64,000 nucleotides of DNA from Celeribacter sp. HF31 (GTDB lineage: Bacteria; Pseudomonadota; Alphaproteobacteria; Rhodobacterales; Rhodobacteraceae). The stretch covers positions 1-64,000 of the forward strand of contig NZ_JAATOT010000002.1 in NCBI RefSeq assembly GCF_011806455.1, in the 5' to 3' direction. A program made the position numbers and the translations under genes. The notes beneath the pieces were generated by a model that saw only the letters and a list, made by a program, of their open reading frames with translations, made no database searches and was not told the DNA's origin. Below, piece by piece: positions 8,413 through 52,119 of the stretch (the first letter of the stretch is position 1; every line of letters starts with the position of its first letter).

Positions 8413-9726
8413 AGAGAACCGCAGCACGACCAACAAGATCACGCCCATGGTCAGATAGCGCATATAGGCCACGCGTTCCATCAACCCGGCCTTGAGCGCG
8501 GAGTCCTCCGCCAGACCGGAGGTCAAAACGCTCACAATCCAACCGCCGATGGGTTCGACCTCGACCCACAAAAACCAGATCAGCATGCCACCCAGAACCG
8601 CGCCCCAGTTGTTGCCGGAGCCGCCCACGATCACCATCACCCAGATCAGGAAGGTGTAGCGCAGCGGCTGGTAGGTGGTCGGCGTCAACTGGCCGTCAAG
8701 CGTGGTCATCATCGCCCCGGCAAAGCCGATAATCGCAGCGCCCAGAACGAAAATCTGCAAGTGTCGCCCGGTGACATCCTTGCCCATCGCCTCGGAGGCA
8801 ACTTCATTGTCCCGGATCGCCCGCATCATCCGCCCCCAAGGGCTTTTGAGCGCCAGTTCCATCGCCAGAACGATGATCCCGATGACCGCCAAAAAGAACC
8901 CGGCATAGAGCAGTTTGACGAAAATCGACGAACCGATGACCGGATCGGCACCGATCTTGGCCATCAGGGACAGGAACCATTCGCTTTGCTGAAGGTCGAT
9001 CTCATAGGGCACCGGACGCGGCAGGCCGTTGACGTTCTTCACGCCGCGCGACAGCCAATCCTCGTTCTTGAGCACGGCCAAAATGATCTCCGCGATGCCC
9101 AAAGTGGCGATGGCAAGATAATCGGAGCGCAGGCCCAGAGCGGTCTTGGCCACGATCCACGCCGCCCCCGCGGCCAAAAGCGCACCGACCGGCCAAGCCA
9201 GCAACACCGGAAGCCCAAGCCCGCCGAGATAGCCCGCCGTAGAGGCATCCACCGCCTCGATCGCCGCGACGGCCGGATCGAAGAGCGTGCGGTAGAGGAC
9301 AAAGCCGACGATAAGGAAAGCGGTGAGAAACAGCCCGCGCAGCCGGGTTTTCGGCAGGCGCGGATAGATCAGCACCGCGCCGACGATGGTGCCGATGCCC
9401 ACCAGCAGCGCAAGGATCATCCGCCCACCACCAGCGGCCCAAGCGGCCGGCACAGGCGGCATAGAGGTCAAGACCACGGCCAATCCCCCCAGCGCGGTAA
9501 AGCCCATGATGCCGACGTTGAACAGGCCCGCATAGCCCCATTGCAAGTTCACCCCCAAAGCCATGATGGCCGAGATCAGCCCCATGTTGAGAATGGCCAG
9601 CGCCGAGTTCCACGATTGCAAAAGCCCGACCGCGATGATCAGCGCTGCCATCGCTGCGAAATACAAAGGCGCACGAGGCAGGGGCTTGGGGGCCTGTTTG
9701 GAGGGCTGTGTCGATGCATGTGTCAT
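8386..9726 (-). CDS. livM: Branched-chain amino acid ABC transporter permease LivM
   Basis: 446 residues and strongly hydrophobic. It is one of the two inner-membrane permeases of a HAAT-family importer for leucine, isoleucine, valine or related amino acids. The LivM hallmarks are LNMGLISAIMALGVNLQWGYAG near residues 44-65, a GLRSDYLAIATLGIAEI block, and the cytoplasmic loop MRAIRDNEVASEAMGKD. The ATG at 9726 overlaps the livH stop (ATGA), so the pair is translationally coupled. The stop codon lies inside a 27-bp tandem repeat. Last gene of livKGFHM. Confidence 0.92.
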   Translation of the reverse strand: MTHASTQPSKQAPKPLPRAPLYFAAMAALIIAVGLLQSWNSALAILNMGLISAIMALGVNLQWGYAGLFNVGIMGFTALGGLAVVLTSMPPVPAAWAAGGGRMILALLVGIGTIVGAVLIYPRLPKTRLRGLFLTAFLIVGFVLYRTLFDPAVAAIEAVDASTAGYLGGLGLPVLLAWPVGALLAAGAAWIVAKTALGLRSDYLAIATLGIAEIILAVLKNEDWLSRGVKNVNGLPRPVPYEIDLQQSEWFLSLMAKIGADPVIGSSIFVKLLYAGFFLAVIGIIVLAMELALKSPWGRMMRAIRDNEVASEAMGKDVTGRHLQIFVLGAAIIGFAGAMMTTLDGQLTPTTYQPLRYTFLIWVMVIVGGSGNNWGAVLGGMLIWFLWVEVEPIGGWIVSVLTSGLAEDSALKAGLMERVAYMRYLTMGVILLVVLRFSPRGLLPEK

Positions 9727-10733
9727 ATGTTTTGCCCCTTGAAGAGACCTGTCGGTTTGAACAGCAGGACGATGATCAGGATCGCGAAGGAGACGGCGAA
9801 TTTGTAGTCCGTCGACAAAAGCTGGACCAATCCATCCGGCGCCCAGCTGTCGGGGCCGAGATAGGTCACGACTTTTTTGAAGGCGTAGGTCAGGGTGACT
9901 TCCGAGAAGGCAATGACGAACCCGCCCGCGATGGCGCCCAACGGATTGCCGATGCCGCCGACGATGGCCGCGGCGAAGACCGGCAGGAGAAGCTGTTGGA
10001 AGATGAAGGGTTTGAACGACTTGTCGAGGCCATAGAGAGCGCCCGCGATGGTCGCCAAAGCCGCGACCAAAAGCCAGGTGATCGTCACCACGCGCTCCGG
10101 GTTGATGCCGGACAGCAGTGCCAGATCTTCGTTGTCGGAATAAGCGCGCATCGACTTGCCGGTGCGGGTCTTGTTCAGGAACCAGAAGAGCGCGGCCACG
10201 GTGATCATCGCAACGACCACGGTGATGACCTGCGTCGTTCGGATCGCGAGACCTTCTTCGAGCCCCGACCAAGCCTTGAACTCGCGGGCGTTGACCACGA
10301 AACGCGCGCCATCGGCGAAGCGGCGATCATCGGTGCCGACGATCATCCGCACCACGCCGTTCAGCACGAACATCACGCCGGTCGAGACGATGACCAACAT
10401 CACCGGCGCGGCTTTGACCTTGCGGTAGAACTTGTAGACCACCTTGTCGGTCGCCAAGAGCAATAGCGCCGTTGCCAGGATGCCAAAGGGCAGGGCCAAA
10501 AGCGCCGTGGGCAGGACGCCCAGTGAAACGCCCCAGCTTTGAAACAGGCCCGTGACCAGCACCACGACCATCGCCCCGAAGGACATGGTTTCGCCATGGG
10601 CAAAGTTCGAGAACCGTAAGACGCCGTAGATCAGCGTGACGCCCAAAGCGCCAAGCGCCAATTGCGCGCCATAAGCCGTGGCGGGGACCACGACGAAATT
10701 TGTGAAGGCCACGAGGGCGTTGAGAATATCCAT
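9723..10733 (-). CDS. livH: Branched-chain amino acid ABC transporter permease LivH
   Basis: 336 residues, the partner permease of LivM. It shows the LivH block LIYGVLRFSNFAHGETMSFGA (near residues 34-54) and several membrane helices, ending in FKPTGLFKGQNI. The start at 10733 (MDILNALVAF) has a GAGAGG site 7 bases upstream and leaves a 13-base gap to livF. A longer frame upstream is only antisense noise over livF. It overlaps livM by 4 bases. Confidence 0.92.
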   Translation of the reverse strand: MDILNALVAFTNFVVVPATAYGAQLALGALGVTLIYGVLRFSNFAHGETMSFGAMVVVLVTGLFQSWGVSLGVLPTALLALPFGILATALLLLATDKVVYKFYRKVKAAPVMLVIVSTGVMFVLNGVVRMIVGTDDRRFADGARFVVNAREFKAWSGLEEGLAIRTTQVITVVVAMITVAALFWFLNKTRTGKSMRAYSDNEDLALLSGINPERVVTITWLLVAALATIAGALYGLDKSFKPFIFQQLLLPVFAAAIVGGIGNPLGAIAGGFVIAFSEVTLTYAFKKVVTYLGPDSWAPDGLVQLLSTDYKFAVSFAILIIVLLFKPTGLFKGQNI

Positions 10734-48068: not shown

Positions 48069-49124
48069 TCAGGCGAACATCTCATGCAAATCGACACTGG
48101 CACGTTCCCCCAGATCGTCGAAATGCTCCGCTAAAAATGTGTCACAGGCTGCCCTGCCCGCCGCTTTCAGCCGCGACAGGATCAAAGGCGAGGGCACCAG
48201 TTTGGTGCGCGCCGAGAGCTCCTGCATCAGCGTGTCATCGGCGATCATATGCACCAGCACATCCTTCATCGTGCCCTGTGGCAGGCGTTCGGCGGCGATC
48301 AATTCGCGCACGAATTGCACCGCACGCAGCTCGCGCAACAGGGATGAATTAAACGAAATTTCGTTGATCCGGTTCTGAATCTCCTCGGGCGTTTTCGGCG
48401 TACCGGGACGCTCCAGAGGGTTGATATTGACGATCACCACATCCGCCGGAAACTCCGGTTCAAACAGCGGAAACAGCGCGGGATTGCCGGTATAGCCACC
48501 GTCCCAGTAAGGATCCGTCACGCCCGTCACCGGATCGGTGATCTGCACCGCTTGGAACAATTCCGGCAGACAGGCGGACGCGAGGATCACATCCGTGTTC
48601 ACCTCATGGCCGGAAAACACCCGGATTTTGCCGGTGCGCACATTGGTGGTGGAGATGAACAGCGCCGGGCCGTCTTCGGCGCCCAAGACGCTGCAATTCA
48701 GCTCCTCGACCACATCGTTCAAAGGGTTCTGATAGAAGGCGCCGTAGACATAGGGGCTGGTCACCGTGGCGATGGAATCGAGGAATGCAAAGGGCACGGT
48801 GTATTGCATCATCTTGGTGAACAGCTCGGTCGTGGGACCGAATTGCGACATCCAGGCGTTAAGCCGCATGTCCGACACCGCCCCCATCTGCGCCCAGACG
48901 CCATCGAGCGCCGCTTTCGCCCCCGCACGCCCGCCTTGCACGAGACCGGATTTCAATGCGGCCCCGTTCAAAGCCCCAGCCGAAGTGCCTGAAATCGCGG
49001 CGATCTCCACTTCGTCATATTCCAGCATCCGGTCCAACACGCCCCAGGTGAAGGCGCCATGCGCGCCTCCGCCCTGAAGGGCCAGGTTGATCTTTTTGAC
49101 GGGTTTGGACGGTTTCTTCGCCAT
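48069..49124 (-). CDS. Patatin-like phospholipase
   Basis: 351 residues. Oxyanion loop GGGAHG (19-24), nucleophile Ser in GTSAGALNG and catalytic Asp in WDGGYTGN form the Ser-Asp dyad. A C-terminal DUF3734-like part contains FVRELIAAERLP. Its ATG overlaps the stop of 3-hydroxybutyrate dehydrogenase by one base, so the two are co-translated; a lipid or polyhydroxybutyrate-granule role is inferred only. Confidence 0.88.
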   Translation of the reverse strand: MAKKPSKPVKKINLALQGGGAHGAFTWGVLDRMLEYDEVEIAAISGTSAGALNGAALKSGLVQGGRAGAKAALDGVWAQMGAVSDMRLNAWMSQFGPTTELFTKMMQYTVPFAFLDSIATVTSPYVYGAFYQNPLNDVVEELNCSVLGAEDGPALFISTTNVRTGKIRVFSGHEVNTDVILASACLPELFQAVQITDPVTGVTDPYWDGGYTGNPALFPLFEPEFPADVVIVNINPLERPGTPKTPEEIQNRINEISFNSSLLRELRAVQFVRELIAAERLPQGTMKDVLVHMIADDTLMQELSARTKLVPSPLILSRLKAAGRAACDTFLAEHFDDLGERASVDLHEMFA

Positions 49125-49897
49125 CAGAGCGCGGTCCAGCCACCATCGACGGAGATCGTCGTGCCGGTGATCTGATTGGCCGCCGAAGACGCGAGAAACA
49201 CACAGGTGCCGCCCAGTTCTTCGACCGTGGCGAATTGTTTCGACGGCTGGCGATCCAACAGAACCTCACGGATCACCGTTTCGCGGTCCATGCCGTATTT
49301 CTCCATCGTATCCGGGATTTGCGCCTCCACCAGCGGGGTCAAAACATAGCCCGGACAGATCGCATTGCAGGTGATCGGTTCTTCGGCGGTCTCCAGTGCC
49401 GTGACCTTGGTCAGCCCCACCACGCCGTGTTTGGCCGCGACATAGGCCGATTTATAGGGCGACGCGGTCAGGCCATGGGCGGAGGCGATATTGATCACCC
49501 GACCCCAACCGGCCGCGCGCATCACGGGCAAGGCGGCCGCGGTGGTGTGAAACGCGGAGCTGAGGTTGATCGCGATGATCGCATCCCATTTGGCGCGCGG
49601 AAATTCGTCGATCGCCGCGACGTGTTGGATGCCCGCATTGTTGACGAGAATATCGCAGCTGCCCGCCTTCTCAATGAGCGCCCGGCACTCGTCGCCCTTC
49701 GACATATCCGCTTTGATATAGCGCGCGGTGACGCCGAATTCGCGGCCGATCTCCTCGGCCAGCGCGTGGTCTTCGTCGCGATCGGTGAAGGAATTGAGCA
49801 CAACATTCGCGCCCACTTTCGCCAATTCACGCGCCACGCCCAGCCCGATTCCAGAGTTCGATCCGGTGATGATGGCGGTTTTTCCTTGAATGGTCAT
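49124..49897 (-). CDS. bdhA: D-3-hydroxybutyrate dehydrogenase
   Basis: 257 residues of short-chain dehydrogenase. Cofactor loop GSNSGIGLG, NNAGIQHVAAIDEFP, catalytic Ser in NIASAHGLTASPYKSAYVAAKHG with YxxxK, and the PGYVLTPLVEAQI segment specific to this enzyme. It oxidises 3-hydroxybutyrate to acetoacetate with NAD. Start 49897 has GGAG 7 bases upstream. Confidence 0.93.
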   Translation of the reverse strand: MTIQGKTAIITGSNSGIGLGVARELAKVGANVVLNSFTDRDEDHALAEEIGREFGVTARYIKADMSKGDECRALIEKAGSCDILVNNAGIQHVAAIDEFPRAKWDAIIAINLSSAFHTTAAALPVMRAAGWGRVINIASAHGLTASPYKSAYVAAKHGVVGLTKVTALETAEEPITCNAICPGYVLTPLVEAQIPDTMEKYGMDRETVIREVLLDRQPSKQFATVEELGGTCVFLASSAANQITGTTISVDGGWTAL

Positions 49898-50105: not shown

Positions 50106-50181
50106 AAAAAAAACGCCCGCACAAGGCGGGCGCTGAGTTATTGAGGCAGGTTTCATACAGGCAAGAAACCTATCGAGCAGT
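50106..50181 (-). ncRNA. Candidate small RNA (~76 nt)
   Basis: Minus-strand unit with no ORF. It starts about 7 bases after a TATAAA box and has a 5' hairpin AGGTTTC/GAAACCT (50171-50165 with 50154-50148; ten-base loop TTGCCTGTAT). A short linker leads to a terminator CGCCCGC-CTTGT-GCGGGCG (50132-50114) and eight T. The architecture is that of a trans-acting sRNA. Targets are unknown. It lies divergent from the solute-binding protein gene at 50287. Confidence 0.6.
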
Positions 50182-50187
50182 GACTTC

Positions 50188-50216
50188 TTTATACGCGGTT
50201 CCACGCCGCACTCCAA
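50188..50216 (-). promoter_or_regulatory. Sigma-70-type promoter of the candidate sRNA
   Basis: On the minus strand TTGGAG (50216-50211), exactly 17 bases, TATAAA (50193-50188). Confidence 0.6.
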
Positions 50217-50286
50217 GCTAAAAGTTTGAAAACACATTCGAGGCGGCATAGTTTGGGGCATAACAACAAGACGGGCGGAGGCACCC

Positions 50287-52119
50287 ATGGCATATCCTTA
50301 TCTTCATCGGGCTTATCTTGATCGGGTCAAGACCGGCACAGCCGCTTTGGCCCTGATCCCGCTCCTGAGCACCGCAGCATTTGCCGACCCCTCGCATGGG
50401 TTGGCCATGTATGGCGCGCCGGAATTGCCCGCCGATTTCACCGCCCTGCCCTATGTCCGCCCAGATGCGCCCAAGGGGGGCAAGATCGTCACCGGCGAAG
50501 GTGGCACATTTGATAGCCTCAATCCCTTTATCGACAAAGGCAATGTGCCGTGGCAGCTGCGCTACATGATGGCTGAAAGCCTGATGATTCAGGCCTATTC
50601 CGAACCCTTCTCGCTCTATTGTCTGCTCTGTGAGACGGTCGAGACGGATGAGGATCGCACCTGGGTCGAGTTTACGCTCCGGCCCGAGGCAAATTTTTCC
50701 GACGGCACGCCAGTGACGGTCGAAGATGTGATGTGGTCTTTTGAGACGCTGGGCACCGTTGGTCACGACCGCTACGGCTTGCTCTGGAGCCAGATCGACA
50801 GCATGGAGCAGACCGGCGACAACAGCGTCAAATTCACCTTCAATGTCGAGAACCGCGAATTGGCGCTTTTGGTGGCCACGCGTCCGATCCTGAAAAAAGC
50901 CTATTGGGACGACAAGGAGTTCACCAAATCCGGCATGGACCAGATCCCGGTGACCTCTGCGCCCTATCAGATCACCGACGCCAATCCCGGCATGTTCATC
51001 GAGATGACCCGCAATCCCGACTATTGGGGCAAAGACCTGCCCGTGATGCAGGGGCAGGCGAATTTCGACACCATCCGGTTTGAGTTCTTCGCCGATCCCT
51101 CTCTGGTGATCGAGGCCTTCAAAGCCGGAGAGTTGAACGCACACCGCGAATTCAATGTGCAAAGCTGGCAGGACCAATACGACTTTCCTGCGGTCGAACG
51201 TGGCGACGTGATCAAATCCGAAATTCCGCATCAGCGTCCCACCGGCATGACCGGTTTCGCGATGAACACCCGCCTGCCGCAATTTGCCGATTGGCGCGTG
51301 CGTCAGGCGATGATCGAGGCGTTCAATTTCAACTATATCAACGAGGCCCAGACCGAAAACCAACAGACCCGCATCACCTCTTACTTCTCCAACTCGCCGC
51401 TGGGCATGCGTCCGGGCCCGGCCGAAGGTCGCGTCAAAGAGCTGTTGGAGCCCTATCAGGACCAACTGCTCCCCGGCGTGATGGAGGGCTACACCCTGCC
51501 AGAAACCTCCGGCCGTGAGATCGACCGGGGCGCGATGCGCCGCGCGCTTGGGCTGATGGAAGAGGCGGGTTGGACCATCCAGAACGGCCAGATGAAAAAC
51601 GCCGACGGCCAGCTTTTTACCTTCGAGATTCTGCTGATGGTCGGCGACAATGAAAACCAATCCATCATCGACACCTACACGCAGATGCTCAACCAATTGG
51701 GCATCCAGCCGAAGATCGAAGTCGTGGATAAACCGCAATATATCCAGCGGATGGGCAATTTCGATTTCGGCATGACACCGGTGCGCTACGGCATTTCGCT
51801 CAGCCCCGGCAACGAGCAATATGCCTATTTCGGTGAGACCGCCGCCGATCAGCCCGGCTCGCGCAACATCGCGGGCGTCAAGGACCCGGTGGTGGATGCG
51901 ATGATCGCCAAAATGCTCGACGCCACCGATCGCGAAGACAGCCTCGCCGCCACCCGCGCGCTTGATCGCGTGCTGACGGCAGGACGCTACGCCATCCCGC
52001 TTTACGCCTGGAACGAAAGCTTTGACGCACATGTGAAAGAGCTGCATTACCCTGAGCCCTTGCCTTTGTACGGCGATTGGATCATGTGGCGGGAAATGAC
52101 CTGGTACTGGGAAGAATGA
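50287..52119 (+). CDS. Extracellular solute-binding protein family 5 (YejA-like)
   Basis: 610 residues. Signal peptide about 33 residues ending STAAFA|DP. The mature protein is a cluster C binding protein: LPYVRPDAPKGGKIVTGEGGTFDSLNPF is typical of YejA-type peptide or microcin C carriers. No permease or ATPase genes follow, so it is either an orphan or serves a transporter elsewhere. An HGLAMYG motif follows the signal. Start at 50287; the GGAGG lies 5 bases upstream. Confidence 0.88.
   Translation: MAYPYLHRAYLDRVKTGTAALALIPLLSTAAFADPSHGLAMYGAPELPADFTALPYVRPDAPKGGKIVTGEGGTFDSLNPFIDKGNVPWQLRYMMAESLMIQAYSEPFSLYCLLCETVETDEDRTWVEFTLRPEANFSDGTPVTVEDVMWSFETLGTVGHDRYGLLWSQIDSMEQTGDNSVKFTFNVENRELALLVATRPILKKAYWDDKEFTKSGMDQIPVTSAPYQITDANPGMFIEMTRNPDYWGKDLPVMQGQANFDTIRFEFFADPSLVIEAFKAGELNAHREFNVQSWQDQYDFPAVERGDVIKSEIPHQRPTGMTGFAMNTRLPQFADWRVRQAMIEAFNFNYINEAQTENQQTRITSYFSNSPLGMRPGPAEGRVKELLEPYQDQLLPGVMEGYTLPETSGREIDRGAMRRALGLMEEAGWTIQNGQMKNADGQLFTFEILLMVGDNENQSIIDTYTQMLNQLGIQPKIEVVDKPQYIQRMGNFDFGMTPVRYGISLSPGNEQYAYFGETAADQPGSRNIAGVKDPVVDAMIAKMLDATDREDSLAATRALDRVLTAGRYAIPLYAWNESFDAHVKELHYPEPLPLYGDWIMWREMTWYWEE

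Follow-up and report, generated by a model that had tools for sequence, protein, structure and literature searches.

The minus strand of the 64,000-nucleotide stretch of DNA analysed here (hereafter the window) likely encodes a regulatory small RNA that is transcribed on its own, acts in trans, and belongs to the core genes of the Rhodobacteraceae, a family of major marine and soil bacteria whose models include R. sphaeroides, R. pomeroyi, and P. denitrificans. With the core of this RNA being near-universal and nearly unchanged within the family, a core regulatory function is very probable, and the RNA appears best read as one of a known kind, the Hfq-type trans-acting small RNAs, notable for its family-wide conservation.

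The RNA gene and its conservation in the Rhodobacteraceae

A sequence-only reading of the window had proposed a TTGGAG-17-TATAAA promoter followed by a unit of about 76 bases with a 7-bp 5' stem, a 7-bp GC stem, and eight T. Both promoter elements with their spacer, both stems, and the T run are indeed present, and all lie on the minus strand, which that reading had left unstated. The parts of the gene are given below; the +1 is predicted from the spacing to the -10 element and the edge of conservation, and the predicted 5' end reads ACTGCTCG.

50106..50181, minus strand: small RNA of about 76 nt, from the predicted +1 at A50181 to the end of the T run at T50106
50211..50216, minus strand: -35 element TTGGAG (family consensus CTTGGA/C)
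50188..50193, minus strand: -10 element TATAAA, with a 17-nt spacer to TTGGAG
50141..50181, minus strand: near-invariant core of 41 nt, from the comparison of 105 distinct family genomes
50148..50171, minus strand: hairpin 1, AGGTTTC-TTGCCTGTAT-GAAACCT, with 7 Watson-Crick pairs, from folding
50133..50147, minus strand: single-stranded linker GCCTCAATAACTCAG, 15 nt, from folding; a possible pairing region together with the flanking CT of hairpin 1
50106..50132, minus strand: intrinsic terminator CGCCCGC-CTTGT-GCGGGCG-T8, with a GC-rich stem, from folding

Folding of the 80 nt from 50184 to 50105 gave -25.1 kcal/mol (z -3.29), and none of 200 dinucleotide shuffles was equally stable. A sigma-70 scan did not place the TTGGAG-17-TATAAA promoter among its listed sites, and the 10 terminator-like sites found in 10 kb compare with 10.1 expected, the terminator of the small RNA being the one richest in stem G-C pairs (7). 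Promoter and terminator scores alone do not separate the small RNA gene from chance; it is because of its conservation that the gene stands above chance.

The sequence-only reading had named loss of the promoter and stems in close relatives as evidence against a gene, and what we saw was the opposite. Among 41 genomes searched by BLASTN with a 161-base query, the RNA was found in all 25 of the same family (20 of the genus, including the genome analysed here, and five of other genera), and the 16 genomes of other families yielded short terminator-only matches in two and no match in 14. A covariance search across the Rhodobacteraceae, which the same reading had recommended, was run with a model built from 12 members and one genome per genus, and it found the RNA in 242 of 248 genera, with searches over more than 40 genomes using stricter filters under which weak matches can be lost. 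Among good-quality family genomes (completeness of 90% or more, contamination of 5% or less) the count was 213 of 215. Four of the six genomes without a match are 71-85% complete; the two good-quality ones, G168 and G190, are 90% and 92% complete and lie in 310 and 370 contigs. An order-level draw gave the RNA in 121 of 121 genomes, all of the same family and 91 of them absent from the 248-genome set.

The class-level set of 190 genomes contained three of the same family, all with the RNA. The 187 from other families gave weak covariance matches in 15 (E 5e-5 to 0.009); the core was kept in none of the ten outside-family loci compared from these matches, nine of which agree with it at just 19-27 of 41 positions, L326 being judged by eye. 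An exact-pattern scan of named genomes returned at least 118 stretches. The titles among the matches listed were Rhodobacteraceae, Paracoccaceae, Rhodobacterales, unplaced Alphaproteobacteria, Neomegalonema, and further genera which we take to be members of the Rhodobacteraceae, Paracoccaceae, or Rhodobacterales. In the four Neomegalonema loci (L083, L134, L142, and L171) the core is kept, with one base off in L171, while the linker and terminator differ and the conserved block upstream of the -35 element, CAAACTTT, is absent; L083 and L142 also show no adjacent solute-binding protein gene at the cut-off used.

A second covariance match was present in 10 of the 242 genomes, nine of these scoring 28-34 bits, and at the two such loci compared, L314 and L315, the core was absent. 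Those two loci, together with G000 C10:253033-253118 (minus strand) and G206 C2:174138, are weak second matches of 28-32 bits. A partial second match of 46.5 bits lies at a contig end (G216 C64:1-43, minus strand) and is either a truncated copy or an assembly duplicate. The RNA also lies on four large Paracoccus replicons that are listed as plasmids, two from P. versutus and one each from P. pantotrophus and P. ferrooxidans; the loci L190 and L191 and the records NZ_CP038196.1 and CP038202.1 are cases of such large Paracoccus replicons. A plasmid search found it in four Paracoccus records only, and a phage search found none.

To compare the core, we used loci fetched by BLASTN or by the covariance model, i.e., without an exact pattern. 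These were 109 loci, comprising 30 best-scoring, 24 low-scoring, 30 further, and 25 relatives, which after removal of four overlaps represent 105 distinct genomes. The 41-nt core is identical in 89 of the 105 and one base off in nine; in ungapped comparison the remainder match at 39 of 41 positions (one genome), 38 of 41 (two), and 26-35 of 41 (four), and one of these, L296, has a loop that is one base shorter. The full 41/41 match was seen in all 30 best-scoring loci, in 24 of the 25 relatives and 28 of the 30 further loci, and in 11 of the 24 low-scoring ones.

The counts for the promoter, flanks, and neighbours were taken from loci chosen by a pattern with 35 fixed positions among the first 37 bases, and they are thus uninformative for the core itself. 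Across 165 unique intact-core loci of this kind, the -35 element keeps T(-34) in 100%, T(-33) in 87%, and G(-32) in 93%, the TAT of the -10 element is kept in 96-99%, and the base before the +1 is C in 79%. Poorer promoters are common among low-scoring members, and the promoter block is missing in some distant members.

The covariation alignment held 98 members, 81 of them distinct and many pattern-chosen on the core. Each of the seven terminator pairs has changed on both sides, with 100% of cells paired in the 81 distinct sequences, as opposed to 30-47% in slid controls. The cells with changes on both sides number 81, all of them in the terminator, against 18.8 in shuffles, and none of 500 shuffles reached the observed value. 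The T run is 6-10 long, with eight T in 111 of 186 loci. The family-wide conservation and these compensating changes in the terminator support the reading of the stretch as a small RNA gene.

None of the seven pairs of hairpin 1 varied in these 81 sequences, which had in part been selected by the hairpin sequence itself, and in the 109 loci a single substitution was seen, in the low-scoring L313, where a G-C pair becomes A-C and is broken. Without covariation, its pairing rests on folding, and a stem frozen in sequence would be equally expected of a protein-binding site. An alternative, which we hold to be rather improbable, is a structural or protein-binding RNA whose frozen 41 nt are bound by a protein or ribonucleoprotein, which the RNA would sequester or guide, with antisense pairing being minor. 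In 106 of 109 loci neither strand of hairpin 1 is changed, which fits such a site, and two of the three exceptions (L296 and L310) are exceptions only through length or loop shifts; the lack of excess in the target prediction below is also in its favour. However, the loop and linker show about the same lack of change as the stem, the terminator with its U tail is of the Hfq type, there is no candidate protein, and frozen stems can also act as seeds.

Neighbouring genes and the predicted divergent promoters

The small RNA lies, as the sequence-only reading had it, between divergent genes, a short-chain dehydrogenase (SDR) gene on the minus strand and a solute-binding protein (SBP) gene on the plus strand. 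It runs in the direction of the SDR gene and away from the SBP gene, which we take to be YejA-like.

49124..49897, minus strand: downstream SDR gene (PF13561/PF00106)
50287..52119, plus strand: divergent gene for an extracellular solute-binding protein of family 5, YejA-like (PF00496, E 1.9e-58)
50226..50231, plus strand: putative SBP-gene -35 element TTGAAA, inside the conserved block AAAAGTTTGA
50249..50254, plus strand: putative SBP-gene -10 element TAGTTT, a TAnnnT at a fixed distance

The co-directional arrangement raises the question of whether the RNA is a cis-acting leader or attenuator of the SDR gene, and 127 of 165 unique loci do have a same-strand SDR gene no more than 800 nt downstream, at cut-offs of E 1e-30 and more than 50% identity. 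At those cut-offs, however, no SDR gene was found in 28 loci with room for one (10 were left unjudged), the next called ORF in L127 is on the opposite strand, and in the window some 210 nt separate the terminator from the SDR start codon. With the downstream gene not being constant, the small RNA is probably not an SDR leader, and we consider this explanation very unlikely.

The sequence-only reading had also stated that the unit has no ORF. This holds insofar as no coding signal was found, and fails insofar as mechanical ORFs do overlap the small RNA. The frame from the core ATG would begin ATG AAA CCT GCC TCA ... (MKPASxT), and in 72 of 186 unique loci chosen for an intact core it reads MKPASIT followed by a stop, as a tiny coding gene might. 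Across the same 186 loci, the frame closes within 8 codons in 97 and is open beyond that in 89, in the window it is part of a 153-aa mechanical ORF, no Shine-Dalgarno sequence was seen before the core ATG, and the third codon positions vary no more than the others. We regard a coding gene here as the least credible of the explanations weighed.

The SBP gene is adjacent and divergent in 151 of 157 unique loci with room for it, seven more loci having no room. The block upstream of the -35 element of the RNA is present in 138 of the 151 loci with an adjacent SBP gene and in none of the six without. Read toward the SBP gene, it is the likely -35 element (GTTTGAA) of that gene, and among 142 loci chosen for having the block, a TAnnnT lies at one fixed distance from it in 126. 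Because the block fits an SBP -35 element with a -10 element at fixed distance, we read the region as two promoters placed back to back. In the window the two -35 elements are 9 bp apart (50211-50254), and the back-to-back layout recurs in most loci. With the elements this close, transcription of the RNA and of the SBP gene would probably be mutually exclusive or co-regulated, and a shared regulator acting at the divergent promoters is possible. A transcription-factor palindrome over the -35 element, CAAnCTnnnAGnTTG, was considered and dropped, since the block tracks adjacency of the SBP gene and fits the SBP -35 element.

Comparison with described RNAs

Hfq-dependent trans-acting small RNAs of the AbcR and GcvB type have their own promoter, unpaired CU-rich pieces, and a terminator with a U tail. 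The RNA in the window resembles them in its own promoter, unpaired CU-rich pieces, intrinsic terminator plus U tail, and transport-related neighbour, and differs in having its 5' half frozen across a whole family, which seems unusual, as judged and not measured. When its sequence was examined for the traits of an Hfq-type RNA, we found an intergenic gene with its own promoter, a terminator with a U tail, and conserved unpaired regions.

A search of the window against Rfam (4227 families, release 15) gave no match at gathering score. The best match below threshold was RF02631 (Hrs13), full-length at 26.2 bits against a gathering score of 52 (E 4.4e-5, in a 111-base search). Hrs13 is likewise a hairpin plus a terminator, whereas its loop and linker sequences are largely unlike those here. 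RF00519 (suhB / MmgR), at 18.8 bits against a gathering score of 41, is again a hairpin-plus-terminator small RNA, with a hairpin and linker unlike those of the RNA in the window. Identity with an Rfam family is ruled out by these scores being below the gathering thresholds. As such, a near-universal RNA and probable global regulator of the Rhodobacteraceae lacks a family model, and we found no regulon for it in the literature.

The sequence-only reading had called the RNA undescribed, which is right for Rfam, but the RNA may already have been seen by RNA-seq in P. denitrificans. According to the passages of PMC5107571 that we drew on, "Intergenic 134" of that species is an 84-nt, minus-strand RNA confirmed by RNA-seq and RT-PCR, with normalised reads of 13,968, 17,250, and 5,830 in three conditions. 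In the same passages it is reported, from BLASTn, to be conserved in Rhodobacteraceae, Celeribacter and R. sphaeroides among them, its context in R. sphaeroides being the same, and to have matches in Rhizobiales, Chloroflexus, and Actinobacteria as well. In contrast, the RNA here had no convincing copy outside the family in the 187 class-level genomes. By its numbering in those passages, Intergenic 134 would lie on chromosome 2 of strain PD1222, at positions 759,993-760,077, and the RNA here lies on the four large Paracoccus replicons mentioned above. The two are perhaps the same RNA, the circumstantial case in those passages being one of size, deduced replicon, and conservation list, not of sequence.

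It is also conceivable, but not probable, that the RNA is one already named in R. sphaeroides, for instance SorY (RSs1543), with the mechanism being as published there. Family-wide presence implies a copy in R. sphaeroides, and SorY, whose start is at position 1,632,642 of chromosome 1 in R. sphaeroides 2.4.1, is described in the retrieved passages as having its own promoter, being RpoHI/RpoHII-dependent, and co-precipitating with Hfq (PMC6238624, PMC5036791). The TTG...TAT of the promoter here also fits the RpoHI/HII consensus as given in a figure legend of PMC10673084, a very loose consensus, and SorY is likened to the RNA here by description. On the other side, StsR (RSs0827), a 72-nt, Hfq-bound RNA of R. 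sphaeroides and thus of the same bacterial family (per passages of PMC8307010), is excluded by its probe, in that the 20-nt stretch implied by the Northern probe in the passages of PMC11354728 is, by reading, absent. Further named RNAs are of another origin or size, and the passages describe UpsM, SorX, CcsR, and RSs1624 as UTR- or operon-derived, Pos19 as 219 nt long, and PcrZ as 136 nt long. Small RNAs of R. pomeroyi are listed without sequences in the part of PMC4809877 that was available. Our small RNA sequence was not found in the literature passages searched, including those from PMC3413700, PMC3320616, PMC3688512, and PMC5089854.

Possible function and candidate targets

If the preferred reading of a trans-acting, Hfq-type RNA is right, RNA polymerase would make a 76-nt transcript ending at the terminator, and Hfq, which the genome encodes, would bind its U tail. 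The predicted unpaired CU-rich pieces (5' tail CUGCUC, loop UUGCCU, and linker CUGCCUC, the last within GCCTCAATAACTCAG, for which we infer a role in pairing) would pair with the purine-rich ribosome-binding regions of several mRNAs, and this pairing would lower translation or stability of those mRNAs. A broader picture, plausible enough to state but held tentatively, makes this unnamed RNA a core regulator that defines the Rhodobacteraceae as a lineage, nearly every genome seen having a single full copy of it. Its 41-nt 5' half would be frozen through the simultaneous dependence of many mRNAs, or of one obligatory ribonucleoprotein, on that sequence. The fixed back-to-back placement of its promoter and the promoter of an oligopeptide-type uptake protein would let either one or the other fire, tying the uptake of peptides or cell-wall peptides to a global RNA switch, possibly one that acts on hfq mRNA as well. 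With the core being near-invariant, one oligonucleotide probe should serve in nearly any Rhodobacteraceae species, allowing direct and comparative tests of function.

Target prediction was performed on a sample of 419 called genes in 464 kb, or 12.9% of the genome, and pairing at these 419 gene starts showed no excess over composition-shuffled RNA pieces. Across the 419 genes, shuffles did as well in 10 of 30 cases for the tail, 7 of 30 for the loop, and 20 of 30 for the linker. Of the individual candidates, a site at a livH-like permease gene (window 9723-10733, minus strand) was rejected as specific to this genome among 16 leaders, and an orthologue of a TonB-receptor candidate was found at the cut-off in only 7 of 26 genomes. 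The SBP and hfq mRNAs can be named as weak candidate targets from comparisons of their leaders.

The hfq gene was picked from about 1,250 gene-by-piece tests, in which its rank for the loop was tenth of 419. In 30 genera, the pairing of its leaders with the loop was matched by 1 of 300 segment shuffles (2 of 150 in a repeat, plus 0 of 60 leader shuffles). The tail and linker gave no excess against the hfq leaders, with 155 and 42 of 300 shuffles reaching the observed value, respectively. By reading, GCAAGAA is kept in the hfq leaders of 14 of 16 genus members, and in the best 30 of 61 hfq loci it is present in 16, with GCAAGAAA present in 3. A-rich CAAGAA / AAGGCAAG stretches also lie in the hfq leaders, no further than about 70 nt upstream of the gene (L212-L227 and L261-L289). 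These A-rich stretches might be where Hfq binds its own mRNA or where a small RNA pairs, and a self-binding site would mimic the signal.

For the SBP leaders, segment shuffles reached the observed mean across 142 loci in 21 of 60 cases for the tail, 7 of 60 for the loop, and 5 of 60 for the linker; with all loci, leader shuffles were beaten on average and segment shuffles were not. In a 30-locus subset both types of shuffle were beaten, with 2, 1, and 3 of 150 segment shuffles reaching the observed value for the tail, loop, and linker. Leaders of the SDR gene, used as a control, also scored low against segment shuffles (7 of 150 for the loop and 6 of 150 for the linker), but not against leader shuffles. 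The loop's own site, [GA]GGCAA, is present in the SBP leader of 10 loci versus 15.4 expected, and [GA]GGCAG in that of 41 loci versus 8.4 expected. Retention of such motifs is patchy and the leaders share ancestry; G[AG]GCAG is present in the SBP leader of 57 of 142 loci versus 7.1 expected in shuffles, and in 16 of the 419 gene leaders of the genome analysed here.
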